Assembly (NCBI GenBank): GCA_947629145.1 | Contig: CANRCQ010000004.1 | Span: forward strand, 1-48,849 | Direction of reading: 5' to 3' | Length of the DNA stretch: 48,849 nucleotides | Source: an uncultured Clostridia bacterium | Lineage (GTDB): Bacteria > Bacillota > Clostridia > Christensenellales > UBA1242 | In this document: positions 24,192 through 39,981 of the stretch, piece by piece | How the letters are laid out: the number at the start of each line of letters is the position of its first letter | How positions within the stretch are numbered: position 1 is the first letter of the stretch | The notes under the pieces: generated by a model | Database searches by the model: none | What the model saw: only the letters and a program-made list of their open reading frames with translations | What the model was told of the DNA's origin: nothing | Program-made: the position numbers and the translations under genes

Positions 24192-25268
24192 ATGAAAATG
24201 CACGAAATTCAAGAAAAAGAAACTGAAAAAGCGATAATTTTCTGTCCTATTGAAAAGGACAGTGACAAAGCCTATCAATTTGCTGAGATTTCAAGGCTGT
24301 GTTTTTCTGCGCAAATGGAAGTTGTCAAGATTTTTAGCCAAGGAATAGATGCCTTCAACCGCAGAACGATTATGGGAAGCGGAAAATTGGAAGAAATAAA
24401 GGCATTTTTAAAAGAAAATCCTTGTGACACACTTGTTGTTGACTTTCAACTTACTGGGTCGCAACTTAGAAACATAAGCGAAGAACTTGGCATAAAGGTT
24501 TTGGACAGAATTTTGCTTATTATCGACATTTTTGCCTTAAATGCAAAATCAAGCGAAGGGAAAATTGAAGTTAAACTTGCGCAAAACAAATATCTTCTCA
24601 CAAGGCTTTCATCCTTGCAAGGAAGTTTTGGGCGCTTTGGGGGAAAGGGCGCAGGGATGCGTGGTCCTGGCGAAACGAAACTTGAACTTGACAGACGAAA
24701 ACTTGAAAAAGAGATAATCACTCTTGAAAAAGAAATTGAAAAAATTAAGGCAAGTCGCAGGCAAAATCGCGTTTTGAGAGAGAAAAACGGCATAAAAAGT
24801 GTTGTTTTGGGTGGATACACAAATGCTGGCAAAAGCACAATCTTCAACCTTTTGACAAGGGAAAATATCTATGCTGATGACAAACTTTTTGCCACACTTG
24901 ACACCACAAGCAGAAGGCTTTTTTTGGATGATGGGCAGTTTTGTTTGCTTACAGACACCGTTGGATTTATAAGCAAACTTCCACATGAACTTGTTGAAAG
25001 TTTCTCTTCCACACTTGAAGAAGTGCAGACGGCGGATTTGGTGCTTCATGTGGTGGATGTTGCCGATGAATTTTATGAGAAAAATATTCAAATCACAAAC
25101 GAAATCTTGGATGGGCTTGGGGCAACAAAAAATCGCATTGTCATTTTAAACAAGTGCGACAAATTAAAAAAGCCTGTTGAAATAAAACAAAATCAGATTC
25201 TCTTCTCTGCACTTGATAAGAAAAATGCAGAAAAATTGAAAAATTTTATTAAAAAAGCGCTTTATTAG
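24192..25268 (+). CDS. hflX: GTPase HflX
   Basis: GRFGGKGAGMRGPGETKLELDRR, GYTNAGKSTIFN, LTDTVGFISKLPHELVESFSSTLEE. Confidence 0.97.
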   Translation: MKMHEIQEKETEKAIIFCPIEKDSDKAYQFAEISRLCFSAQMEVVKIFSQGIDAFNRRTIMGSGKLEEIKAFLKENPCDTLVVDFQLTGSQLRNISEELGIKVLDRILLIIDIFALNAKSSEGKIEVKLAQNKYLLTRLSSLQGSFGRFGGKGAGMRGPGETKLELDRRKLEKEIITLEKEIEKIKASRRQNRVLREKNGIKSVVLGGYTNAGKSTIFNLLTRENIYADDKLFATLDTTSRRLFLDDGQFCLLTDTVGFISKLPHELVESFSSTLEEVQTADLVLHVVDVADEFYEKNIQITNEILDGLGATKNRIVILNKCDKLKKPVEIKQNQILFSALDKKNAEKLKNFIKKALY

Positions 25269-26491: not shown

Positions 26492-29197
26492 ATGGTTAGA
26501 GTTATCCCAAGAAAAACGAAAGTCAAAAGTGAATTTATTCGTGGTGTCACAGGCCTTGATGTTGTTTTGGCAATCATTTTTGTTGCCATTGCGATAATCT
26601 TGTTCATGTCCGTTTTTGATATTGGCGGAACTAACATCGGCCCTTGGCTTGGGGTGGCTTGGCTTATTATTGCAATTTCAATGTTTTTGAAACTTGCCGA
26701 TGACCAGCGATTTTATGTGACACTTATTTATCTTTTGAAATACTCCGTTCAAAAGAAAAAGTTTTCCAAGGGCAGTGACAAGAAAAAAAGTGACATCAGT
26801 GAGATGATTGCCTATGAAGGAATTTATCAAGACAGATTTATCAACTTTGGACAATACTATGCACAAGTTATTGAAATTCAGCCGATGTTTTTCACACTTC
26901 TCACTGAATATTATCAAGACAACGTTATTGAAAGTTTCGCAAATGCACTTAGGCGCTTAACTCCAACTCAAACCTGCTCGATTGTGAAAATTTCAAAACC
27001 TATGATTTTGGACAGATACATACACAACGAAAACGCAAAATATGATGTGCTTTATGATATGCAATATGACGGACAAATCACACAGGAAGAGATTGATGCA
27101 CGCGCACCTATTTTTGAAGAGCGTGTTTCCTTGTATGAATTTATGAACCGCCAATCCAAGATTTTTAAAGACCACTTTTATTTGGTTGTCTATGACAAGG
27201 ACATGGAAATTTTGGAAAACACCACTTCCGGCATGATAAGCGCCATGGCATCATCACTCAACCCAATCACATCACACCTTGTTCAGGGCAATGACCTTGT
27301 TGTGTTTTTGAAATCCAATCTTGGCAAAAACTTTGACGAAAGAGATTTGGAAATTGTGCCTATTGCAGAACACATAAATTGGGCGACCCCAGACAAGATT
27401 CGCTTTAATATTGCAAGATATTTTATAAATGACGAATGTTATCGTTGCTACAACTTGATTGACTATCCACTTCAAGTTGGAAACGCATGGGGCAGCCAGT
27501 TTTTCCTTTTGGACAGAACAAGGGTTGTTATGAAATTCAACCCAATTCCAAAACTTGAAAGTGAAAGACAGATTGATAAAGCCATCATGGAAATGGAAAC
27601 AAAACTTTACAAGGCAGGAAAAAGCTCGATGCAGATTGAACTTCAAACCCACGTTGACACATTGAGAGAACTTTTGGTCAGCCTTAAAAACAACAACCAA
27701 CAACTTTTCAATGTCAACACCTATGTCATTTGTGAAGATGCCGCAAAGAAAGATGTTCGCGCCATGCTTAAACAAGAAGGCTTTAAATACAGCGAACTTT
27801 TCTCACGACAAATTGATGGATTTATTTCTTCAAACGTTTCACGAAGAGACAGTGTTAAAAACAGTTTGCGCGGCATTCCAACATCTACACTTGCCGCAAC
27901 ATTCCCATTTATTTCAAACGCACTGCAAGACCCAAACGGCATTTACATAGGCGACAACGAATATCCTGTTTTTGTTGACTTCTTTAAACGTGACAGAGAA
28001 AGAGTTAACTCAAACATGATGATTATTGGAAAGTCTGGTTCTGGAAAATCCTATGCAACAAAAACGCTTTTGACAAACTTTGCTGCGGACAACTGTAAGA
28101 TTTTCATTCTTGACCCAGAAAACGAATATCAAGACTTGACAAGAAACTTGGGCGGAAAGTTTATCGATGTTGGTTCTTCAACACACGGAATTATCAATCC
28201 TTTCCACGTTATTTCTTCCCTTGAAGCCAGCGAAGAAGATGAAGACGAAGAAGAAGATGAATTTGACGAATATGGAAGGCCAATTCCAAAGAAGGAAGTT
28301 GCCGTTGCAGCCGATGACTCATTCTCTCAACACTTGCAGTTTTTGGAACAATTCTTCCGTGTTATTTTGGAAGGAATCAATCCAGACGCATTTGAAGTTT
28401 TGAACTCGCTTATCATTGATGTTTATAAGGAATTTCATATTGATTATCGAACAAGCCTTGCAAAACTTAAACCAAAGGACTATCCAACATTTGATGCACT
28501 TTATGACTTGATTTTAAGAAGAATCAAAACGGCGAAAGACGACTTTACACTAAGAAACCTTATGACTGTTGAAACCTACATCAAAAAGTTTGCAACTGGT
28601 GGGCGTAACAGCGCACTTTGGAACGGCCCAACATCCATTGAAACAAACGAAAACTTTGTTACTTTCAACTTCCAGTCACTTGTTGCAGGAAACAACCCAC
28701 AAATTACAAACGCACAGATGCTTTTGGTGTTTAGATACCTTAACAACGAAATTATCAACAACAAAGATTTCAACAAAAAATATCGCAAAAACAGAAAGAT
28801 TATTGTTGCGGTTGATGAAGCGCACATCTTCATCAATCCAAAATATCCAATTGCGCTTGACTTTATGGCACAGATGGCAAAACGTATTAGAAAATACGGT
28901 GGAATGCAGATTATCATCACACAGAACATATCCGACTTTGTGGGCAGTGAAGAAATCAGGCGTCAGTCAACGGCGGTTATTAACGCGTGCCAATATTCAC
29001 TTATCTTCTCACTTTCACCAGCGGACATCAACGACCTTGTTGCGTTGTATGAAAAGTCTGGCGGAATAAACGAAGAAGAACAAAACTCAATTGTCACTGC
29101 AAGCGTTGGACAAGCATTTTTAATCACAGGGCCAACTTCAAGAACAACTGTGCAAATCATTGCACAAGACTATGTTCTTCAACTTCATGGGGGTTGA
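26492..29197 (+). CDS. PrgI/VirB3-like-VirB4 fusion conjugation/T4SS-type ATPase
   Basis: N-terminal IPRKTKVKSEFIRGVTGLDVVLAI + two TM helices, then VirB4 core: Walker A IIGKSGSGKSYATK, ILDPENEYQDL, Walker B KIIVAVDEAHIFI, IITQNISDF; aggag RBS. Confidence 0.88.
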   Translation: MVRVIPRKTKVKSEFIRGVTGLDVVLAIIFVAIAIILFMSVFDIGGTNIGPWLGVAWLIIAISMFLKLADDQRFYVTLIYLLKYSVQKKKFSKGSDKKKSDISEMIAYEGIYQDRFINFGQYYAQVIEIQPMFFTLLTEYYQDNVIESFANALRRLTPTQTCSIVKISKPMILDRYIHNENAKYDVLYDMQYDGQITQEEIDARAPIFEERVSLYEFMNRQSKIFKDHFYLVVYDKDMEILENTTSGMISAMASSLNPITSHLVQGNDLVVFLKSNLGKNFDERDLEIVPIAEHINWATPDKIRFNIARYFINDECYRCYNLIDYPLQVGNAWGSQFFLLDRTRVVMKFNPIPKLESERQIDKAIMEMETKLYKAGKSSMQIELQTHVDTLRELLVSLKNNNQQLFNVNTYVICEDAAKKDVRAMLKQEGFKYSELFSRQIDGFISSNVSRRDSVKNSLRGIPTSTLAATFPFISNALQDPNGIYIGDNEYPVFVDFFKRDRERVNSNMMIIGKSGSGKSYATKTLLTNFAADNCKIFILDPENEYQDLTRNLGGKFIDVGSSTHGIINPFHVISSLEASEEDEDEEEDEFDEYGRPIPKKEVAVAADDSFSQHLQFLEQFFRVILEGINPDAFEVLNSLIIDVYKEFHIDYRTSLAKLKPKDYPTFDALYDLILRRIKTAKDDFTLRNLMTVETYIKKFATGGRNSALWNGPTSIETNENFVTFNFQSLVAGNNPQITNAQMLLVFRYLNNEIINNKDFNKKYRKNRKIIVAVDEAHIFINPKYPIALDFMAQMAKRIRKYGGMQIIITQNISDFVGSEEIRRQSTAVINACQYSLIFSLSPADINDLVALYEKSGGINEEEQNSIVTASVGQAFLITGPTSRTTVQIIAQDYVLQLHGG

Positions 29198-29207
29198 TTT
29201 AGAAAAT

Positions 29208-32200
29208 ATGACAAAAAGACTCAAAAACATTTTAATAGGCTGTTTCAGTGTGTTTGCCTTCTTATTTGCGGGTGTCTTTTTTGTCGGCTGCTGCGATGTA
29301 GATTACAGCAAAATCAGCCTTGTTGCTGACAAGGGGAATATAGAACTTGACGTGGGGGAATCTTCCTATGTGACAGTGAAAATTCAGGGCTATCAAAAGG
29401 GCTTTTCAAACAGGGTTAAGATAAACTCCAAAACAGACGGAAAGACGGATGTTTTCTCTGTGACGGACACCGTTTACACAAGCGATGACACCATAAGATT
29501 TACTGTCATGGGGGTTGCTGGTGGAACTGGACAACTTATTGTTCAAACTCTTGAAGGAAACAAGTCTTGCCCAATCAATGTCAGTGTCAATCAATACACA
29601 AACTATCTTTCAAGGGCAAACACAACAAACTATGTTTCAAATCAAACTGACTTTGTGCCAAATGCCGCTTGCTTTATCTTTGACGAACAAACAACAAACA
29701 GAGATTTGACCCACTACTATATTAAACCAGAACAAGATGTTGATTTCAGCACTTTGCAACTTTCACGAATTGACACAGTGCAAAATCTTGCTTACTTTGA
29801 AAATCGTTCTAATGGCAACGTGATTTACAGGGAAATTGCCGTTGTGGACAGATTTTGCCTTGAAGAAGAAAATGGAGTGAACAAACTTTACAGATGTTAT
29901 CAAAATGAAAAAGAAGAGATGAATTTAGTTGGACAATTTTATTTTCTCAGTGTTTACAATCACTCAGTAAACCCAAATCAAGACGGAATTGCAGAAAACA
30001 TTTTAAGTTGTCTAAGCCCAGTTTATGTGCTTCCAGATATTAAATTTGATGTGACTGGCGGCTATCTTGTAGATGGCAGGGTTGCTGAATTTAAAGAAAA
30101 TAAAGGTGGCACTATTACAATAGTTCCTAATAATGCCAACAAAAGAGAATATTTATTAAGAGTTGAGATGGGGGCTAACACTAAAAATGAATTCTCTCAA
30201 ATAGTGTTCTCACTTAGAAAATCGAACAACTATTCTGTTGTGGACTACTTTGATTATGAAAATCCAAATGACGAAGGGAAGGATGTTAGATACATAAAAA
30301 TTTCACAAAACTCCCAGAAAAAAGCGACAACAGAATTTTCTATGGAAGTTTACTATGACATAGCGCAACAGGCGGAAGATTCAAGTGTTAGAATAAACCT
30401 TGATTGGACAATTGAAATTAAAATTGCCCCAAGCACAATCTATGTAAACGGCACACCTGAGCCACCAACTATGACCCTTTACAACTACTATCTTTCCCCA
30501 GAATTTGGCTGGCAAGATTTGTATATAGATGTGCTTTCAAATTACAGCACTTCGCCTGATTTTGACGGAATTTACTTCAATTTTAATTCAAGTTATATAG
30601 ATATTATGTTAAACAACACTTCTATAAACAGTGTTGACAACTATAATCCAGGTGTAACTACACTTTATAAAGACTTGTCGAAACCTTTCCAAATTCGTGG
30701 AAGTGACTCTAAATCCACAACTGAAGACACGGTTGTCAGTATTTATGTTGTGAGTGATTTTGTGGAAGAAGGGCTTGAGCCGGCGGAAGTTCATTGCAAA
30801 ATTCTTGACGGCGCGGACACAATTTCTCCATACAGAAACCCACAGCCAAACTATTACTATTTGGATATAGATGGCGGAACGCAGTCTTTCTCGACTCAAA
30901 TATTTGCCAACAGGGCTTTCTCTTATTCAACCGCAAGATGCATAAGTTCTGTTGGCTATTCCACAGACAATGTAGAAGGTGTTGACCCTTCTCTCACAGA
31001 AAATTCAAGAGTTGTTGATGGGATTGCTATTGACACACATCCAGAGAACCCTTACATTCAACAAGGCGACCAATATTATATAAACTTGTCTGTGACGCCG
31101 CGACTTACTGGAATTTTTACATACACAATCACTTTGGACAACGGAATTTCAAGGAACATCACATTCAACTGCATAAGAGCGTTAAACACCACAGTTTCGC
31201 CTATGAGATTGACTGCCAGCGGAAATGAAGATGTTTCAAGATGGTCTTATGAACGCGAAGGAAACGCAACTTTTGATAATGTTTTAAATATAGAGATTTT
31301 AAACTCATCCACAAAGGATGTCATCACTTTTGGCAGCACGGCTGATATTGAAGTGACGGCAAATGTTTCTGCGGATGATGTTGCTTTTGCGCCAAATGAC
31401 AGCCAATATATTTCAGTTGCAAAAAATTCGACATTTTACAGAATTACAACCAAGGCAAACGGCAACACGCGAATTACATTCACATTGAATGGATTTATTG
31501 TTTCAAATTTTGAACCTGTGTCAAGAACTTTAACAATGTATATAGACATAAGTTCTTATTCCATTGTCCAGGAATTTTATTTGCAAAACGGAACGAATTA
31601 TGCGCTAAACAACACAGTTTATTTTGATGATACATCTGGCGGAAATTTGATTTCCAATTCAAACAGTATTGAATTTCAAGCAGTTGCAAATCGACCTGAA
31701 TCAAGCAACTTTGTTCAATATTATTTTACAGATGCTTTTGCAAAAGAAATTTGGAACAATCCAAATTTAGACATAACTATTGAAGACGGCGAAGAAGTTT
31801 CAAATCCGCGTATCGACAGAGATGGGCATTACAGTTTTAACATAACCGCGCTAAACTTTGAAGACATGATTGGCACAAGAATTGTGCAAGAACAATATAA
31901 CAAAAATTTTGTGTATTTCTATGTATTTGACCAATTTGGAAGAATAAAAGATATTGTCACAACCGAAATCACCATCACAAAAAATACGGAAGTTAGAACA
32001 TATAAACTCAGCATTTCAAGCGGACTTATGTTTTTTGCGGACACACTTACTGTGTCAGTGAGCGACCCAGATAATCCAAATGTAAAAGATGAATATAAAG
32101 TTGAGTTTACCAACAAGTTTAATATAGGGGATTGGGCGACATTCGACACAGAAACATTTACATACACAAATGTTGACCCAGCCATTCACACCACAATCTT

Positions 32201-35200
32201 AAATGCAAACATCACACAAAGATTAAATCAAAGAGAGATAACAAGAAGATTTGATGCCCAAATTGTCACAAAAAGATACCAAACTGTAAAGAGCATCAGC
32301 CTTGCTTCAAGTTTGAAAGAACTCAATTTTTCAAGTGACAACCTTGAGATTTCTTTGGGAGTTTACACAACCCCAGTTGATGCCACAAACAATGATATTC
32401 GCGCTTACTTTGTGCCAACAAAAGACAATAAATATCAAAACATGGTGTTGATTGAAAAAAGTTATCTTGGCAACGGCTATTACACACTAGACCTTTCTTG
32501 CGAAGAATTTTTGAGAAGTGTTGACGACATTTTGAATGTTGGTTGCTCACTTACTGGAATGGTGTATATATATCCAACTGAGTGGGAAAGACTTCCAAAT
32601 TACAGCCCTATTGTTTTGCCTGTTCAATTTAGAAACGGCTCTAAAGAAAATCCATATCTTCTCGAATCGGCAGACGATGTTTTGGCAATAAATTCAAGTG
32701 AAACAATGCTTAGAAGCCACTATGAGATAAGTTCTCAAATTGATATGTCATCTGTAAAAGGTGCAACTCCAATCGGCATATTAAATGGAAAACTTGTGGG
32801 CTTCAGCGGAACAATCACAGGCACAACAAGTGATGCAGCCATTACAAATCTTTCAGTTTACAAAAACGAAAATGGAAGCAACTTTGTAACAACCATTGAG
32901 GGCATAACATATGCAGGGCTTTTTGCACAGATAAACACATACAGCAAAGGCACCAAAGAAAACGCTGATCCAATATACACTGTGCTTGAAAACTTCTCTG
33001 TAAGGGGAAGTGTGGATTTGCAGTTGCAAGAAGGCGCAGTAAGTTATGTTGGGCTTGTCACGGCAATCAACCAAGGACAAATTATCAACGTCATGGCGGA
33101 AATTGAAAGGGCTTCTTCTGTGCAAGGCGGAACAATTTACTTTGGGGCGCTTGCGGCAATCAACTATGGCAGAATTACACAAAATATCAAAATTTATGAA
33201 ACATCAAATCTTGACAAAAATGATGTTGAACAAAATCCTTTCTACAAATTGCAGTCCAAAAACTTGGCTTATTACAATGCAGTCGTGGAAATTAAAGCAC
33301 AGAACATCTATGCAGGTGGCGTTGTTGGGGCATCAAGTGGGGTTATTGAAAGAATAAGTCCAAGCGAAAATTACAAACTTTATGGCTATTCTGGTTACAC
33401 TTCTTACACACTGATAACCGTGGATGGAACAGGTGAAAATATTTCAGTTGGCGGAATTGCAGGGCTTATTGCATATTTGCAAGAGAACTCTGTTATTCCA
33501 ATGCCTGAACTTGACATTCTTGAAGAAATTGAAGAAATAAATTCATGGGATGGGGCAAACTTTGCCGCATCTGTTGTTGACAATATTCTAGTTGGGGGAA
33601 TTATCACTGCAACTGGTGACAACGCGGCGGCTGGCGGAATTGTTGGAAATTCCTATATATATAGTAACACAAACACAAACTATATTTACAACAGCACAGA
33701 CAGAACATTTATTCGTGGAGTTGTTGTTGGCGCTCTTGTGGGCAAGGAAGTTCGTGGCATGGAAGGTGGACAAGGTGCGACAACGACATTTAAAAACAAC
33801 AAAATTGAAGCAGTTGATGCCCAATATAATGCGTTTGACAGTGCAAAAATTATTAAATATTCAAACGATATAACAGGACTTCCACAAAAACCAGAAAAAA
33901 CGGAAGAAATGGATGACGAAACTTACAACAAAAATCTTGAAGACTATTATAAACAAGTGGCAAAACTTGTTGCCATTGGGGAAAGTCTTGGCGGAAGTGC
34001 GGATGATGTGACGGCAGTTTCATATCTTGACAGAACTTTGATAACAGTTAAATCAACTGACGTTATCAATCCATCAGCAAACATTACAACATCAAGTTTT
34101 TATGGGGACTTTATCTTAGCACAACAAAACGGAAACGGCTTTAACATTTATGGCTGGGCATTATTTGAGCATAAAGATGTCAACATCAGTGAAATTTTAG
34201 ATGCATCTCAGGGAGCATTTAAAATGAAGATTGACGAAGCCAATGCACCAGATATGTATTTTATGTATCACTTCTCTGTTTCTGGAAGGGTTGATGGAAG
34301 CGCAGGAAAACAGGCTCAAGACGACATTGATGCCGGCGGACTTAACACATTCAATCCAAATCAAACAGACCTTTATCCATTTGTTTTGAAAAGTCAAGAA
34401 GTCAGCATTGTTGCATCAAGTTCTACAGTTTTGTCAATCGATATAAACGGCAATATTACAACAAAAACCACTGGCGATGCAACCATCACATTATCCAGCA
34501 TTTTAAACACTGCAAAAAGCAAGACGATAAGGATTCACGTTTTCAATTACTTTAATAAAGATGCAAAATCGGCAATGTTCTATGACTCTCCAGACACTTC
34601 TTCAGCTTGGCTTCAAGGACAAACAAACTTGAATATTGTTGGAAATTCTTATGCAAACATCTATTTGATTCCTTCTTATGAATATAGTGAAGAAGGTGCT
34701 GATTTTAGAATTTCATATGACGGAGTGTTAAACTTCAACAACGTCAACTACTATCTTGACCAAAATCTTGACATGACAGTTGATGTTAAAGTTAAAGAAA
34801 ACACTGATAAAGAAGATTACAGTGAAACAGAAAGATATTTTGAGTCTGCTGTGACATCTCAAACTGTCATTTTCTGGAGAATGCAAAATCCAAATCCAGG
34901 CGGCACATACGCATATGTTTTGACACCTGTGATAAGGGTTTCAATTAGAAAGGGCTTGGACAGTTTTTACAATTATTATTATTCACTTGCAGATGCAAAA
35001 TTGGAAGTAAAACCACAATATTTTGATGCGGCAACCTATCTGTCAGCAAAATATCACACAAACTCTTTGGCAACAAACGAAACATTCACTGACTTAGTGA
35101 CAGTGAAATCTTCAAACGAAAACGAATATTTGTTCTACAAAGTGTTTAAAGGCGGTGTTTTAATTCAAGACAGACTTCCTGACATAGGGGAGAAAATTCA

Positions 35201-38200
35201 ACTTACAAGTGAAGAAGATTGGAAAAAATATATCGGATATGAAGGGGAATATGAGGAAAACGACTCTTTCGATGACACAAGACTTTTTGATATAACCATC
35301 ACAAGAAGAATCGGTGCAAATGGAGAATATTTCTTTGACTACACCTTTAAAGTGAACAAAAAAAGCACTTCATTTGAAGAAGGCTCTAAAAACATCTACG
35401 GAAAATATGTTTTGAGATTTTACGCAACAGAAGGCGAAAGCGGAGTTTATGACGAAGTTGAAATTGAACTTAAAGAAACAGTCCTTAAATATGTGAGTGC
35501 AAACAACTATTCCAACGGCATAAATGCAACACAGATAGATTATATTGTTGTTCCTTCACAAAAGGGAATGTTGGAAGTGAACCTTAATCCTATTGAAGCC
35601 ACTTTTGAAACATTCAAAATCTCAAACAATGCAATAAACAATCAAACAGGCTCTGCAAACGCAACTTTTGCACTTTTATATCGCACAAGAACAAGTTTTG
35701 TTGAAGTTCCAAACTTTGGGACAATGCTTGACGGCACTTTCAGTTTCACTTATCAAGACTTTATCAATTACCTTCACTCTTTGCCGAAGACTGAAAATGC
35801 TTATCCATATCTTGGAAAGATTTATCTTTCTTACTATATTCCTGCGCTTAATGTGGAAGATGGCAGCCCAATTGCGTTTGATATTGAAGTTAAGGGAAGT
35901 GAAGAAGAACCGCTCACATGCCCTGTTGAACTTAAAATCAAACTGTTAAATTATGCAACCGTGCATTTTGCTGACAAACAGCCTGTTGGCGATGGATATT
36001 ATGTTGCAAGGGGGCTGGGCTATGACCTTCAACTTGATTATTATGGGTACAATCTTGACGAAATCAGCCTTTCAGTTGACAGCGAATACATAACACTTGT
36101 GGACAACCATGATGGAACATACAGGCTTAATGTGACAAGTGGCGGTGTGATTTATGGTGATGACGACCCAGGTTATAGGGTGACACTGACCGTGAACGCA
36201 GAACGTTCTATTGACAATCAAAAATACGTTTCTCAAAGTGAAATAACCATATATATAATGGACTATGTTTTGAATTACACCTATCAAGAAGGCATAAATG
36301 AAGATATTGTTCGTGGAATGGAAAACGGCGTTATCAGCACCGCAATCGGCAACCCTTATAAACTTGAATTTAACATACTTGACTTCATTGAATACTTTGA
36401 TGACCCAAACAACATGGAAGTTATATGGCGCGTCAATGAGTTTGTTGAAGAAATGACAAACTCTGTGACTTGGACAGTCTATGAAAACGGAAAAGAGCCT
36501 TTTGTTTTACAGAGAAATCAGTCTTCTCCAGTAAGCGATTATTACTTCTTTGATTCAACAGATTTCACAATCACTCCAAGCCGTCTTTACAACGCAGAAA
36601 GCGACATTTATCACTTCTCGGCTGGCGGATATTACACCATGAACAAGGGAAGTTACAGTGTCAGCACAAACCCAGTGACGGCAATGAGAATTTACACAGA
36701 ATTTGCATTTGATGTTCACAATCAAAGCACTCAGGACAGCCCTATTCCTGTGTATGACTTAGAAGACTTTTTGGGAATGGAAGCGGATGCTTACTACATT
36801 TTGATGAAAAATATTAACTTGCCAAGTTCTATTGACGAAACTCCGTTCACACCAATCACCACTCAAATTCGCGGACTTGACGGCAACAACAAGAGAATTA
36901 TATTCAGCGGAAACTATGTTTTTGACGGACTTGAAGATGTTGGGGTGTTCACTGAAATTGCAGATGGGGCAGTGTTTAAGAATGTCGATATTACAATAGA
37001 AGGTAGTGTCACATTCAAAATGAACACAACAAACTTTAATATTGGGCTTTTGGCAGCAACCAACAATGGAAATATAACAAACTGTCAAGTTTTGGCTGAT
37101 GTAAATGGCGGAACATTGTCGGTTGACAGTTCTGTTGTTGCAAATGGGTCGAACATAGCGGGACTTGTTGCACAAAACAGCGGCTTTATCACAAACTCTC
37201 GAACAGGAGTGAACATAAATGGAAATGTCAATATTGCCGGATTTGTGGCAAACAACACTGGGCTTATTGCAAGTTCTTACTTTATGGGCGCAACCTTAAA
37301 CAACACCACAGACCGCGACAACACCGCAGGCTTTGTCATCAACAACAGTGGACGCATTTACACATCATATGTAAGTGGCGGCCGTCAAGACAATCAAATC
37401 TATTATGGCTACTTAAATGAAGGAAAACTTAACCTTTCATCAGCCAACAATCCAAAATATCTCACATCAAGTTATGGAGTTTCTGGCTTTGTTCACACAA
37501 ACACTGGAACTATTGAAGATTGCTATTCAAACATAATGCTTACAGGAACACCTTATGCAGTCGGTTTTGTATATCAAAACTCTGGGCTTATTGAAAGAGC
37601 TTTCTCAACCTGCCTTATGGACAGTGAACAGACAATCAACTATGGTTTTGCACAATCAAATTCTGCCACTGTTGGGGGTGTAACAACCGATGGCATGGGA
37701 ATTAGGGAATGCTTCTTCTTGCAACAAGAAAAGAAGGAAAGTCAGGATGGACAGGAAGGGCAGATTGGCATCAACTATAATATAGCAGACAATCTTAAAG
37801 GTGATAATTGTCAAATCACACCGCTCACTTGCAAAGAATTTGATTTGCTTGATGAAGAAAATGGAATGGCAAATCTCTTTGAAAACTTTGCAATTGCAAG
37901 GGGAAGAGATATAAATTCTGTTTGGTTTATCAGCAACAGTGTTCTTGACGGCAGAAATGACCACTTTAACAATCAAAATTTTGTTCATAACAGACTTGAA
38001 CTTGTTGCACCAAATATTATTGCAACTTCTCAACGCGTTCTTAGCCGCATGGAAACTGTCACAGAAAATGACGTGACTTACACTTTGTATATTTACAACT
38101 ATGTTACAAAAGAAAATGCTTCGGCTTTGGGTGACGAATACAACCCTATTCTTATTGAAGATGCAGAAACTTTTGAAAACTATATTGTTCAAGAAAACAA

Positions 38201-39863
38201 TGCATCAAATGTAAACACATCTTATTACAGACTTATTTCCAATATTGATTACAGCGAATATGAAGGCAACGGCGGAACTTACAACACCAAATTTGTTGGC
38301 TATCTTGAAGGCAACTTTATGTCTGTAAGGGGTGTTGTGCTTCACAGCGCAAACGCATTGCACTCAGCAGGGCTTTTTGCTGAACTTGGCGACAGCAAGA
38401 TGTCTTCACTTCGCGGAACACTTATGAACTTCACTTTTGCACCAAGGTCTGTCAACTTTGCAAATGCAAACGCAGTTGGTGCAGTTGTTGGAAAGGTTGA
38501 TGGCGGCGCGATTATAAATGTCAATGTGGAACTTTACACCAATTACTCTAGCAACGAAGATATAAACGCAAATGCAACTGTTCAAGGCAAAAACCTTGTA
38601 GGTGGTGTTGTGGGAGTTGCCGTTGGGGATTATATTTTCAACAAAATTAGCTCGCAGTTTGGGGCAAGGGCAAGACAACAAATTATCACTGACAACAACT
38701 TTGATGAAAGTGTGTATGATTGGAGCGATTATTCGTTTGCAGGCTCGGTTGTGGGTGTGTTAAGCGGAACAGGAAATGTTTATAATATTCAAAATGACAG
38801 CCGTGTTGTTGTTGCAGGGGCAAAGGCAGGACTTTTGTTTGGAAGCATCGGCTCTGGGGTTACAGTTCAAAAAATCAGCCTTAACCTTCTTGCAGAAGAC
38901 AGTATAAATGGGTATAACTACTGCGGCTTAATCGCAGGGGAAAGCATGGGAACGGTTAAAAATGTTCAAATCCTTGGCGAAAGTGTTACATTTGAAAATG
39001 TGAGAAGGTCGCCTGTTATGCCAATTTCCTTTGGTGCGTTTGCAGGAATTGTAAACGGTGGCTCGCTTAGTGACATAACAGTTAACATTCGTGAAATTTT
39101 GCTCAGTTCAAGTACTGATGAAAACGGAATTACATATGTTGGTGGAATTGCTGGTGTTGTTATTGGACAGCACGTTTCAATGGAAAATATCACTGTAACA
39201 TCAACAAGTTTAAGGGCATATAAATATGCTGGTGGCGTGGCTGGAATTGTCGGCTATGCAAATGAAATTGTGGGCTATGGACAACTCTCTCAGGCGGCTG
39301 TCAATGCAAGTTTCAAAGGCTTTAATGTTGATGTTTCAATAAATATTGTTGGAACAAAACAAGACTTTGTTGGAATTGGTGGACTTACTGCAAAAGTTGC
39401 GCCACTTACGACTCTTGAAATTGCAGGAGTAACACAGACTGTGGGCGAAACAGAAACAACAAAGAAAAACACTGTTTCTGTGAACGCAAATGCTCATATG
39501 CTTTTGTTTGGAACAACTATTTCCGTTTATTTGGGTGGGCTTATCGGCTACAACGAAAGTGCAAACACTCACTCAATTGGCGACACGGACTCTACATTCA
39601 TAAGTTCAAACAGAATTTATATAGACGATGTTACAAAGGATTTGACTGAATATGAAGACACAACTTTTGCCGTTCAAGCAGCTGGCGGACTTACTATTAC
39701 AGGCGAAAAGACGGAAGATATAAAAGATTTGATAAATGTTGCTTCTCCAAATTGCACATATAAATGTCAGTTTGTTTACAGAAGATATTACATGGGGGCT
39801 AACACAAATTATCGACTTTATCTTTCAAACTATGGCTCTCCTCAGCCAATTCAAACAAATTAA
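29208..39863 (+). CDS. Giant (~3,551 aa) predicted surface lipoprotein with Ig-like and GLUG-like repeat modules
   Basis: Signal peptide MTKRLKNILIGCFSVFAFLFAGVFFVGCC with lipobox-like FVGC; BIG2-like segments; many xAGxVAxNxGxIxNS-type repeats; no LPxTG or C-terminal TM. Confidence 0.88.
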   Translation: MTKRLKNILIGCFSVFAFLFAGVFFVGCCDVDYSKISLVADKGNIELDVGESSYVTVKIQGYQKGFSNRVKINSKTDGKTDVFSVTDTVYTSDDTIRFTVMGVAGGTGQLIVQTLEGNKSCPINVSVNQYTNYLSRANTTNYVSNQTDFVPNAACFIFDEQTTNRDLTHYYIKPEQDVDFSTLQLSRIDTVQNLAYFENRSNGNVIYREIAVVDRFCLEEENGVNKLYRCYQNEKEEMNLVGQFYFLSVYNHSVNPNQDGIAENILSCLSPVYVLPDIKFDVTGGYLVDGRVAEFKENKGGTITIVPNNANKREYLLRVEMGANTKNEFSQIVFSLRKSNNYSVVDYFDYENPNDEGKDVRYIKISQNSQKKATTEFSMEVYYDIAQQAEDSSVRINLDWTIEIKIAPSTIYVNGTPEPPTMTLYNYYLSPEFGWQDLYIDVLSNYSTSPDFDGIYFNFNSSYIDIMLNNTSINSVDNYNPGVTTLYKDLSKPFQIRGSDSKSTTEDTVVSIYVVSDFVEEGLEPAEVHCKILDGADTISPYRNPQPNYYYLDIDGGTQSFSTQIFANRAFSYSTARCISSVGYSTDNVEGVDPSLTENSRVVDGIAIDTHPENPYIQQGDQYYINLSVTPRLTGIFTYTITLDNGISRNITFNCIRALNTTVSPMRLTASGNEDVSRWSYEREGNATFDNVLNIEILNSSTKDVITFGSTADIEVTANVSADDVAFAPNDSQYISVAKNSTFYRITTKANGNTRITFTLNGFIVSNFEPVSRTLTMYIDISSYSIVQEFYLQNGTNYALNNTVYFDDTSGGNLISNSNSIEFQAVANRPESSNFVQYYFTDAFAKEIWNNPNLDITIEDGEEVSNPRIDRDGHYSFNITALNFEDMIGTRIVQEQYNKNFVYFYVFDQFGRIKDIVTTEITITKNTEVRTYKLSISSGLMFFADTLTVSVSDPDNPNVKDEYKVEFTNKFNIGDWATFDTETFTYTNVDPAIHTTILNANITQRLNQREITRRFDAQIVTKRYQTVKSISLASSLKELNFSSDNLEISLGVYTTPVDATNNDIRAYFVPTKDNKYQNMVLIEKSYLGNGYYTLDLSCEEFLRSVDDILNVGCSLTGMVYIYPTEWERLPNYSPIVLPVQFRNGSKENPYLLESADDVLAINSSETMLRSHYEISSQIDMSSVKGATPIGILNGKLVGFSGTITGTTSDAAITNLSVYKNENGSNFVTTIEGITYAGLFAQINTYSKGTKENADPIYTVLENFSVRGSVDLQLQEGAVSYVGLVTAINQGQIINVMAEIERASSVQGGTIYFGALAAINYGRITQNIKIYETSNLDKNDVEQNPFYKLQSKNLAYYNAVVEIKAQNIYAGGVVGASSGVIERISPSENYKLYGYSGYTSYTLITVDGTGENISVGGIAGLIAYLQENSVIPMPELDILEEIEEINSWDGANFAASVVDNILVGGIITATGDNAAAGGIVGNSYIYSNTNTNYIYNSTDRTFIRGVVVGALVGKEVRGMEGGQGATTTFKNNKIEAVDAQYNAFDSAKIIKYSNDITGLPQKPEKTEEMDDETYNKNLEDYYKQVAKLVAIGESLGGSADDVTAVSYLDRTLITVKSTDVINPSANITTSSFYGDFILAQQNGNGFNIYGWALFEHKDVNISEILDASQGAFKMKIDEANAPDMYFMYHFSVSGRVDGSAGKQAQDDIDAGGLNTFNPNQTDLYPFVLKSQEVSIVASSSTVLSIDINGNITTKTTGDATITLSSILNTAKSKTIRIHVFNYFNKDAKSAMFYDSPDTSSAWLQGQTNLNIVGNSYANIYLIPSYEYSEEGADFRISYDGVLNFNNVNYYLDQNLDMTVDVKVKENTDKEDYSETERYFESAVTSQTVIFWRMQNPNPGGTYAYVLTPVIRVSIRKGLDSFYNYYYSLADAKLEVKPQYFDAATYLSAKYHTNSLATNETFTDLVTVKSSNENEYLFYKVFKGGVLIQDRLPDIGEKIQLTSEEDWKKYIGYEGEYEENDSFDDTRLFDITITRRIGANGEYFFDYTFKVNKKSTSFEEGSKNIYGKYVLRFYATEGESGVYDEVEIELKETVLKYVSANNYSNGINATQIDYIVVPSQKGMLEVNLNPIEATFETFKISNNAINNQTGSANATFALLYRTRTSFVEVPNFGTMLDGTFSFTYQDFINYLHSLPKTENAYPYLGKIYLSYYIPALNVEDGSPIAFDIEVKGSEEEPLTCPVELKIKLLNYATVHFADKQPVGDGYYVARGLGYDLQLDYYGYNLDEISLSVDSEYITLVDNHDGTYRLNVTSGGVIYGDDDPGYRVTLTVNAERSIDNQKYVSQSEITIYIMDYVLNYTYQEGINEDIVRGMENGVISTAIGNPYKLEFNILDFIEYFDDPNNMEVIWRVNEFVEEMTNSVTWTVYENGKEPFVLQRNQSSPVSDYYFFDSTDFTITPSRLYNAESDIYHFSAGGYYTMNKGSYSVSTNPVTAMRIYTEFAFDVHNQSTQDSPIPVYDLEDFLGMEADAYYILMKNINLPSSIDETPFTPITTQIRGLDGNNKRIIFSGNYVFDGLEDVGVFTEIADGAVFKNVDITIEGSVTFKMNTTNFNIGLLAATNNGNITNCQVLADVNGGTLSVDSSVVANGSNIAGLVAQNSGFITNSRTGVNINGNVNIAGFVANNTGLIASSYFMGATLNNTTDRDNTAGFVINNSGRIYTSYVSGGRQDNQIYYGYLNEGKLNLSSANNPKYLTSSYGVSGFVHTNTGTIEDCYSNIMLTGTPYAVGFVYQNSGLIERAFSTCLMDSEQTINYGFAQSNSATVGGVTTDGMGIRECFFLQQEKKESQDGQEGQIGINYNIADNLKGDNCQITPLTCKEFDLLDEENGMANLFENFAIARGRDINSVWFISNSVLDGRNDHFNNQNFVHNRLELVAPNIIATSQRVLSRMETVTENDVTYTLYIYNYVTKENASALGDEYNPILIEDAETFENYIVQENNASNVNTSYYRLISNIDYSEYEGNGGTYNTKFVGYLEGNFMSVRGVVLHSANALHSAGLFAELGDSKMSSLRGTLMNFTFAPRSVNFANANAVGAVVGKVDGGAIINVNVELYTNYSSNEDINANATVQGKNLVGGVVGVAVGDYIFNKISSQFGARARQQIITDNNFDESVYDWSDYSFAGSVVGVLSGTGNVYNIQNDSRVVVAGAKAGLLFGSIGSGVTVQKISLNLLAEDSINGYNYCGLIAGESMGTVKNVQILGESVTFENVRRSPVMPISFGAFAGIVNGGSLSDITVNIREILLSSSTDENGITYVGGIAGVVIGQHVSMENITVTSTSLRAYKYAGGVAGIVGYANEIVGYGQLSQAAVNASFKGFNVDVSINIVGTKQDFVGIGGLTAKVAPLTTLEIAGVTQTVGETETTKKNTVSVNANAHMLLFGTTISVYLGGLIGYNESANTHSIGDTDSTFISSNRIYIDDVTKDLTEYEDTTFAVQAAGGLTITGEKTEDIKDLINVASPNCTYKCQFVYRRYYMGANTNYRLYLSNYGSPQPIQTN

Positions 39864-39952: not shown

Positions 39953-39981
39953 TTGACAAGGGCTTGATTATTTGTTATAAT
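39953..39981 (+). promoter_or_regulatory. rpoB promoter P2
   Basis: TTGACA-17-TATAAT, consensus, with extended TGT. Confidence 0.8.

Follow-up and report, generated by a model that had tools for sequence, protein, structure and literature searches.

The type IV secretion systems (T4SSs) closest to the one described here are those of mycoplasma integrative and conjugative elements (ICEs). These elements (ICEA/ICEB) encode a pilin-like protein (Mbov_0395), a transmembrane protein (Mbov_0396), an ATPase (Mbov_0397), a VirD4 protein (CDS5) and a lipoprotein (CDS14). In M. agalactiae, ICE transfer requires the surface lipoprotein CDS14, which probably works via cell contact and can exert its effect from the recipient (PMC6030558). 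A relaxase-less chromosomal T4SS is found throughout Patescibacteria (PMC12102498), and in Saccharibacteria the T4SS is essential for epibiotic growth (PMC12857230). We analysed a stretch of 48,849 nt (the window; contig CANRCQ010000004.1) from an uncultured Clostridia bacterium of the family UBA1242, order Christensenellales, in which the gene for a VirB4-type ATPase is directly followed by that for a giant lipoprotein. On the best reading of the sequences, the family possesses a T4SS with the same core parts as the mycoplasma ICE machines and close to them in kind, which would be a core machine of the family, largely vertically kept.

For the window genome, this would be a domesticated, chromosomal T4SS that lacks a relaxase and is joined by an adhesive rod specific to the genus, with contact-dependent delivery as its proposed role; to the statement as a whole we assign a probability of roughly 0.6. 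The genome comprises 947 kb in 57 contigs and is 89% complete. The organisms of the family are uncultured and known from draft metagenome-assembled genomes.

The VirB4-type ATPase

The two genes and their main features are as follows.

26492–29197, + strand: VirB4-type T4SS ATPase with a two-transmembrane (VirB3-like) N-terminus, nearest to NCBIfam NF045975 (Mbov_0397 type); profile and structure-database matches
26528–26701, + strand: hydrophobic two-transmembrane N-terminal stretch, ATPase residues 13–70, in a VirB3-like position; hydropathy
28028–28051, + strand: Walker A, GKSGSGKS, residues 513–520; sequence
28802–28825, + strand: Walker B, IVAVDEAH, residues 771–778; sequence
29208–39863, + strand: giant lipoprotein of 3,551 amino acids, with a signal helix and lipobox, an immunoglobulin (Ig)-like chain and GLUG-like beta-helix modules; sequence and models
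29208–29297, + strand: signal sequence and lipobox-like motif (MTKRLKNILIGCFSVFAFLFAGVFFVGC); sequence

The ATPase open reading frame runs from the ATG at 26492 to the TGA at 29195–29197 and encodes 901 amino acids with intact Walker motifs; it is the single VirB4 of the genome. In an NCBIfam profile search, NF045975, the model of the mycoplasma ICE ATPase Mbov_0397, aligned to residues 5–894 (E-value 3e-174), and by profile score the protein is nearest to this type, not a member of it. The solved VirB4 structures 4ag5/4ag6 (PDB) were matched with an E-value of 1e-46, and the closest records in phage and plasmid collections were Spiroplasma and mycoplasma plasmids, at 26–30% identity. The original prediction had labelled the protein VirB3/VirB4-type. 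The VirB4 part of this label holds; no VirB3 model matched the N-terminus, for which the VirB3 part is plausible, given two predicted transmembrane helices that fall within the NF045975 coverage.

Genomic context

Upstream of the pair lies hflX (24192–25268) and downstream rpoB. The original prediction described a VirB4-type ATPase gene 10 nt ahead of a lipobox-bearing giant gene, with housekeeping genes on either side, and both points were confirmed. Of the neighbouring genes that were examined in the window, none was recognised as coding for a relaxase, VirD4, VirB6 or integrase, as had also been claimed. The window contains no tRNA genes, and an Rfam scan of it returned no matches. Neither an integrase nor an element boundary, the marks of ICE membership, adjoins the T4SS gene; the order virB4–giant gene–rpoB is instead kept in 13 out of 13 genus genomes with contigs reaching rpoB. 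The proposed check of synteny in relatives thus came out in favour of co-conservation, the giant gene directly following virB4 in every genus locus read, with a gap of 8–193 nt at those loci that allowed a start to be assigned.

In the window, the giant open reading frame begins 10 nt past the virB4 stop. This gap contains no promoter-like site, and one was found further downstream.

39953–39981, + strand: promoter-like site, a perfect TTGACA-17-TATAAT, after the giant gene and ahead of rpoB; sequence

The latter suggests that rpoB is transcribed apart from the giant gene. Because the gap lacks a promoter-like site and rpoB has its own, virB4 and the giant gene are likely co-transcribed as a two-gene unit. 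In genus g16, a T4SS cluster is likewise found a few kb ahead of rpoB (L098); given this cluster, the position is possibly the ancestral location of the T4SS.

Other T4SS components in the same genome

The ATPase had been called solitary, which the remainder of the genome contradicts. Genes for a VirD4/TraG coupling protein (G000:C13:19398–21443), a VirB6-like channel protein (G000:C5:30121–32073) and a pilin candidate with two transmembrane segments (G000:C3:23445–23720) are located on other contigs. VirD4 exceeded the cut-offs of NF045973 (CD1115-type; 277 vs 250 bits) and PF02534 (179 vs 20), and the VirB6-like protein those of NF045848 (MMCAP2_0566; 107.4 vs 90 bits) and NF045889 (Mbov_0396; 72.9 vs 70). 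The genome therefore holds the combination by which a T4SS is recognised, VirB4 and a VirB6-like protein plus a VirD4 coupling protein, and the families nearest to its T4SS parts are those of mycoplasma ICEs or of clostridial conjugation. The original prediction had named a complete T4SS or ICE elsewhere that uses this ATPase as evidence against itself; what was found is largely such a T4SS, in dispersed form, and not an ICE. The whole-genome search that it proposed recovered VirB6-like and VirD4 proteins, no relaxase of the types searched and no identifiable VirB8.

The dispersed parts each sit among housekeeping genes, such as recD2 and comF-like genes (family search) or cardiolipin synthase-like and uvrC-like genes (by reading). 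This dispersal is not an artefact of the window assembly, because the parts are likewise scattered in relative G034 (100% complete, 8 contigs), where one contig carries the genes for VirB4 (at about 37 kb), VirD4 (about 112 kb) and the pilin (about 122 kb), and another contig those for three VirB6 proteins. Three tandem VirB6-like genes were observed in six genus members (L215, L219; matches in G059, G100, G346 and G406) and one in the others. In genera g22, g33, g38 and g39, VirB6-like proteins of about 1,800–2,900 amino acids flank VirB4 on one or both sides (L071, L072, L076, L077 and L102).

Distribution, phylogeny and selection

VirB4 was detected in 138 of the 147 family genomes (101 of the 106 good ones) and VirD4 in 141 (104 of the good ones); both occur in 42 out of 42 genera and are usually single-copy. 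In other families of the order, VirB4 matches were sporadic. Most genomes of the family measure 0.8–1.4 Mb, whereas the listed genomes of other families of the order span 1.3–4.2 Mb. Many other genera have a cluster in the order VirD4, pilin, VirB6, VirB4, followed by a variable large gene, while the genus of the window has the dispersed arrangement. The gene after VirB4 in those genera was considered as one conserved family and rejected, being hypervariable and without family matches. Its products, cytosolic-looking proteins of 600–1,900 amino acids at this fixed site (L068, L073, L087, L093, L094, L100, L104 and others), are candidate substrates of the T4SS.

In a tree of 43 VirB4 proteins, the genus was coherent and the core copies were genus-structured, forming a branch apart from the ICE copies; a phylogeny against ICE VirB4 had been proposed as a check. 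Two ICE copies differed by less than 1% between genera g1 and g27. VirB4 and VirD4 distances correlated across 16 genomes (Spearman 0.65, Mantel p 2e-4), and the parts may be taken to assemble into one machine in view of their co-conservation. In comparison with relative L060, virB4 showed 0.022 nonsynonymous (dN) and 0.591 synonymous (dS) substitutions per site, values comparable to those of hflX (dN 0.015, dS 0.764), which indicate strong purifying selection.

VirB4 of the family shared a group with the ICE copies of the family, one copy from Lachnospiraceae and the mycoplasma sequences, the last on long branches. It did not fall inside a Patescibacteria clade, which was represented in the tree by a single row on a long branch. 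Because VirB4 groups apart from this row, the family T4SS looks like a parallel to that of Patescibacteria.

The giant lipoprotein

The best start of the giant open reading frame is the ATG at 29208. The sole hydrophobic stretch of the protein is N-terminal and terminates in a lipobox-like FFVGC, and a lipobox-like motif is present in the giant of 21 out of 21 genus loci read. Neither LPxTG nor HExxH motifs occur in the giant. AlphaFold models were built from alignments of 17–18 sequences. Residues 1–1184 were predicted as a signal helix and a chain of beta-sandwich domains (predicted local distance difference test (pLDDT) 82, predicted template modelling score (pTM) 0.43), and the last 1,188 residues as beta-helix and sandwich modules (pLDDT 74), of which the final 100 residues are unreliable. 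The nearest PDB folds were Ig-like chains of S-layer, contactin and cadherin structures, and IgA1 proteases. For the last of these the E-value was 1.9e-4, and an IgA1-type protease was rejected for lack of an HExxH motif. By resemblance, the giant would be a rod-like adhesin. Compared with L060, it evolves faster than virB4 and is still constrained (dN 0.23, dS 1.14).

Three candidate homologues were rejected, none showing profile similarity to the giant beyond signal sequences: the giant surface protein that other genera encode next to VirD4 or the pilin (c35), the lipoprotein whose gene lies between those of the pilin and VirB6 (c46), and Mbov_0399. Other genera, and some members of the genus, encode close to VirD4 or the pilin a separate giant protein of Ig-like type that carries a membrane anchor at its C-terminus and measures about 2,100–2,860 amino acids in its longer copies (L222, L223, L224, L140, L141, L146 and L218). 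A long surface protein is thus a recurring companion of the T4SS.

Relaxases and true ICEs in the family

The relaxase search set comprised PF03432, PF18555 and one ICE relaxase, with other MOB types outside it. PF03432 gave no match over its cut-off in 24 genomes. A MobL-type relaxase, searched with a query from the ICE of a relative, was retrieved in 10 of these 24, and MobL was detected in 28 of the 147 family genomes. In the window genome, no PF03432, PF18555 or ICE-relaxase homologue was detected among these searched families.

A few relatives carry true ICEs, in which a divergent, paralogous T4SS set is accompanied by a relaxase and an integrase and branches apart from the core copies. 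The ICE of G363 encodes a MobL relaxase, VirD4, a 1,490-amino-acid Ig-like surface protein, a pilin, VirB6, VirB4 and, by reading, a tyrosine-integrase-like gene; it ends beside the core virD4 (L149, L150; G363:C1:56000–95800), and similar ICEs were seen at L106, L083 and L151. Six genomes have a lone MobL-type relaxase and only the core VirB4 and VirD4 (G118:C10, G080:C1, G131:C8, G315:C7, G017:C7 and G010:C5). These lone genes are possible mobilizable elements that use the resident machine.

Comparison with known systems

The family T4SS resembles that of mycoplasma ICEs in its best or near-best family matches, in the order pilin–VirB6–VirB4 of the clustered genera, in an accompanying surface lipoprotein and in the reduced genomes of the hosts. 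Unlike the mycoplasma system, it lies off mobile elements with no relaxase or integrase alongside, is core in the family and is dispersed in the genus of the window; the giant of 3,551 amino acids has no detected homology to Mbov_0399, and the profile scores of VirB4 and of the pilin fall slightly short of the family cut-offs. In Mesomycoplasma hyopneumoniae (NZ_LR214993.1, 55711–71354; L259), the order is eno–dprA–Mbov_0395–0396–0397–0399–rpsT, with a large gene directly after VirB4, as here. This VirB4 is about 30% identical to ours, and in profile comparison the large downstream protein does not resemble the portion of the giant that was tested. The unit between the housekeeping genes eno and rpsT is a possible further domesticated T4SS.

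As in Patescibacteria (PMC12102498, PMC12857230), the family T4SS is lineage-wide, chromosomal and mostly relaxase-less, and it shares with theirs a monoderm host, VirB2-like pilins and very small genomes. The coupling protein of Patescibacteria is often encoded far from virB4, as in the genus of the window. In contrast to Patescibacteria, no type IV pilus motor was found in the 24 family genomes searched, the VirB4 belongs to a different lineage, and an epibiotic lifestyle is at most a possibility. The Helicobacter pylori ComB and archaeal Ced systems are likewise domesticated chromosomal T4SSs with a VirB4 motor, and ComEC is present in the family genomes searched; however, ComB operates with no VirD4, which is conserved in the family. 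The Streptococcus suis 89K T4SS, with reported protein export (SspA-1 secretion, reviewed in PMC12857230), is a Gram-positive system with VirD4 and VirB4, but it is carried on the 89K island and has a known substrate, unlike that of the family.

Function of the T4SS

We consider it very probable that the set is a domesticated T4SS. The original proposal of a domesticated T4SS motor with a giant adhesin-like partner stands as regards chromosomal retention outside a mobile element and genus-wide co-conservation, and falls as regards a system of two genes. The machine would consist of the VirD4 coupling protein, VirB6-like channel, VirB2-like pilin and VirB3/B4 ATPase, with their genes scattered in this genus and virB4 joined to the giant gene in a tight, probably co-transcribed unit. 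As a long, lipid-anchored rod of Ig-like and beta-helix modules, the giant would hold a neighbouring cell at the surface. VirD4 would pick a cytoplasmic substrate, and the VirB4-driven VirB6 channel would export it, most likely as a protein effector. A selected export is favoured because VirD4 is kept in nearly all genomes. Contact-dependent protein delivery is the favoured function, and we propose it tentatively, at somewhat under even odds; DNA exchange or mobilisation comes second and DNA uptake third.

Several observations weigh against this reading. The ATPase scored 581.1 bits against the curated NF045975 cut-off of 590, 9 short with nearly the whole model covered, and the pilin candidate fell below the cut-offs of NF045849 (Mbov_0395; 36 vs 40 bits) and PF18895 (T4SS_pilin; 21.2 vs 26.6). 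Neither a VirB1 hydrolase nor VirB8 was identified, although at least one gene for a peptidoglycan amidase is present. A VirB6 match is missing in relative G118, which is 100% complete. The giant lies beside VirB4 only in the genus of the window, the gene after VirB4 being different and hypervariable beyond it; in other genera the giant was not found next to VirB4, and no search was made elsewhere in their genomes. Its fold-search matches have low template modelling scores, and no homology was detected to the surface proteins beside T4SS genes in other genera. Matches of the GLUG motif (PF07581) are weak, involving 5 of the 17 giant orthologues (E-value 0.0038 or weaker) and not the window copy. 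No substrate was identified for the predicted T4SS of the window genome, and its relaxase-less status depends on a limited search set and an assembly that is 89% complete.

Alternatively, the machine may still move DNA between cells, either as chromosomal exchange between siblings, as in mycoplasma, or as a resident helper for small MobL-bearing mobilizable elements. VirD4, which conjugation requires, is retained, the closest named machines are conjugative, and mycoplasma ICEs also transfer chromosomal DNA (PMC12857230). The lone MobL-type relaxases in core-only genomes (G080, G118, G131, G315, G010 and G017) fit a helper role, but their elements could employ a visiting ICE instead, and 119 of the 147 family genomes, that of the window included, lack a MobL relaxase. 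We regard DNA transfer as unlikely on balance.

Less likely still is a role in DNA uptake, in which the machine would work in the manner of Helicobacter ComB or archaeal Ced and supply DNA to ComEC, the cells having no competence pilus. ComEC was present in 24 out of 24 genomes, including that of the window, and no full-length PilB/ComGA/VirB11-type ATPase was found in them, a combination that permits such a role. Matches to PF00437 were rejected as pilus or VirB11 motors, the best one in the window genome being SpoIIIAA and a further scrap coming from the RecD2 P-loop. The pilin candidate adjoins a comF-like gene in the window genome (L214:9323–10735, G000:C3), comF lies near T4SS genes also in the ABY1 class of Patescibacteria (PMC12102498), and in M. 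hyopneumoniae dprA directly precedes the equivalent gene set. On the other hand, the direct pilin–comF adjacency was not seen in other genus loci read, ComEC is common (10 of the 14 control genomes were over the cut-off), and VirD4 is present in 141 of the 147 genomes, whereas ComB lacks it (PMC12857230).

Two further explanations fare much worse. It is very improbable that VirB4 and the giant by themselves make up a self-contained system for export or adhesion, with no need of further T4SS parts: the pair is tightly linked and co-conserved in the genus with no other T4SS genes nearby, but the same genomes also encode a VirB6, a VirD4 and a pilin of the matching type, whose genes are linked to virB4 in sister genera, and a giant with its own lipoprotein signal should not need VirB4 for export. 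That the two genes persist as remnants of a degraded ICE, a notion prompted by true ICEs with the same gene types in the genus, is hardly credible and was rejected on conservation and selection, given open reading frames, VirB4 in all 42 genera, strong purifying selection, rpoB synteny and a branch apart from the ICE copies.

Implications

We found no paper in the open-access literature in which a T4SS is described as a core trait of these bacteria. Among monoderms, a near-universal relaxase-less T4SS in a bacterial family is known mainly from Patescibacteria. It is conceivable, if doubtful, that this family is a second monoderm lineage, unrelated to Patescibacteria, in which a relaxase-less T4SS became a core organelle alongside genome reduction and serves, together with giant adhesive rods, for an epibiont- or predator-like life on, or exchange of material with, other gut bacteria. 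The genus-level linkage of VirB4 to the giant lipoprotein supplies a concrete candidate for the cell-contact part, and a further case, phylogenetically apart from the first, in gut Clostridia with small genomes would allow asking what bacteria with reduced genomes use a T4SS for.
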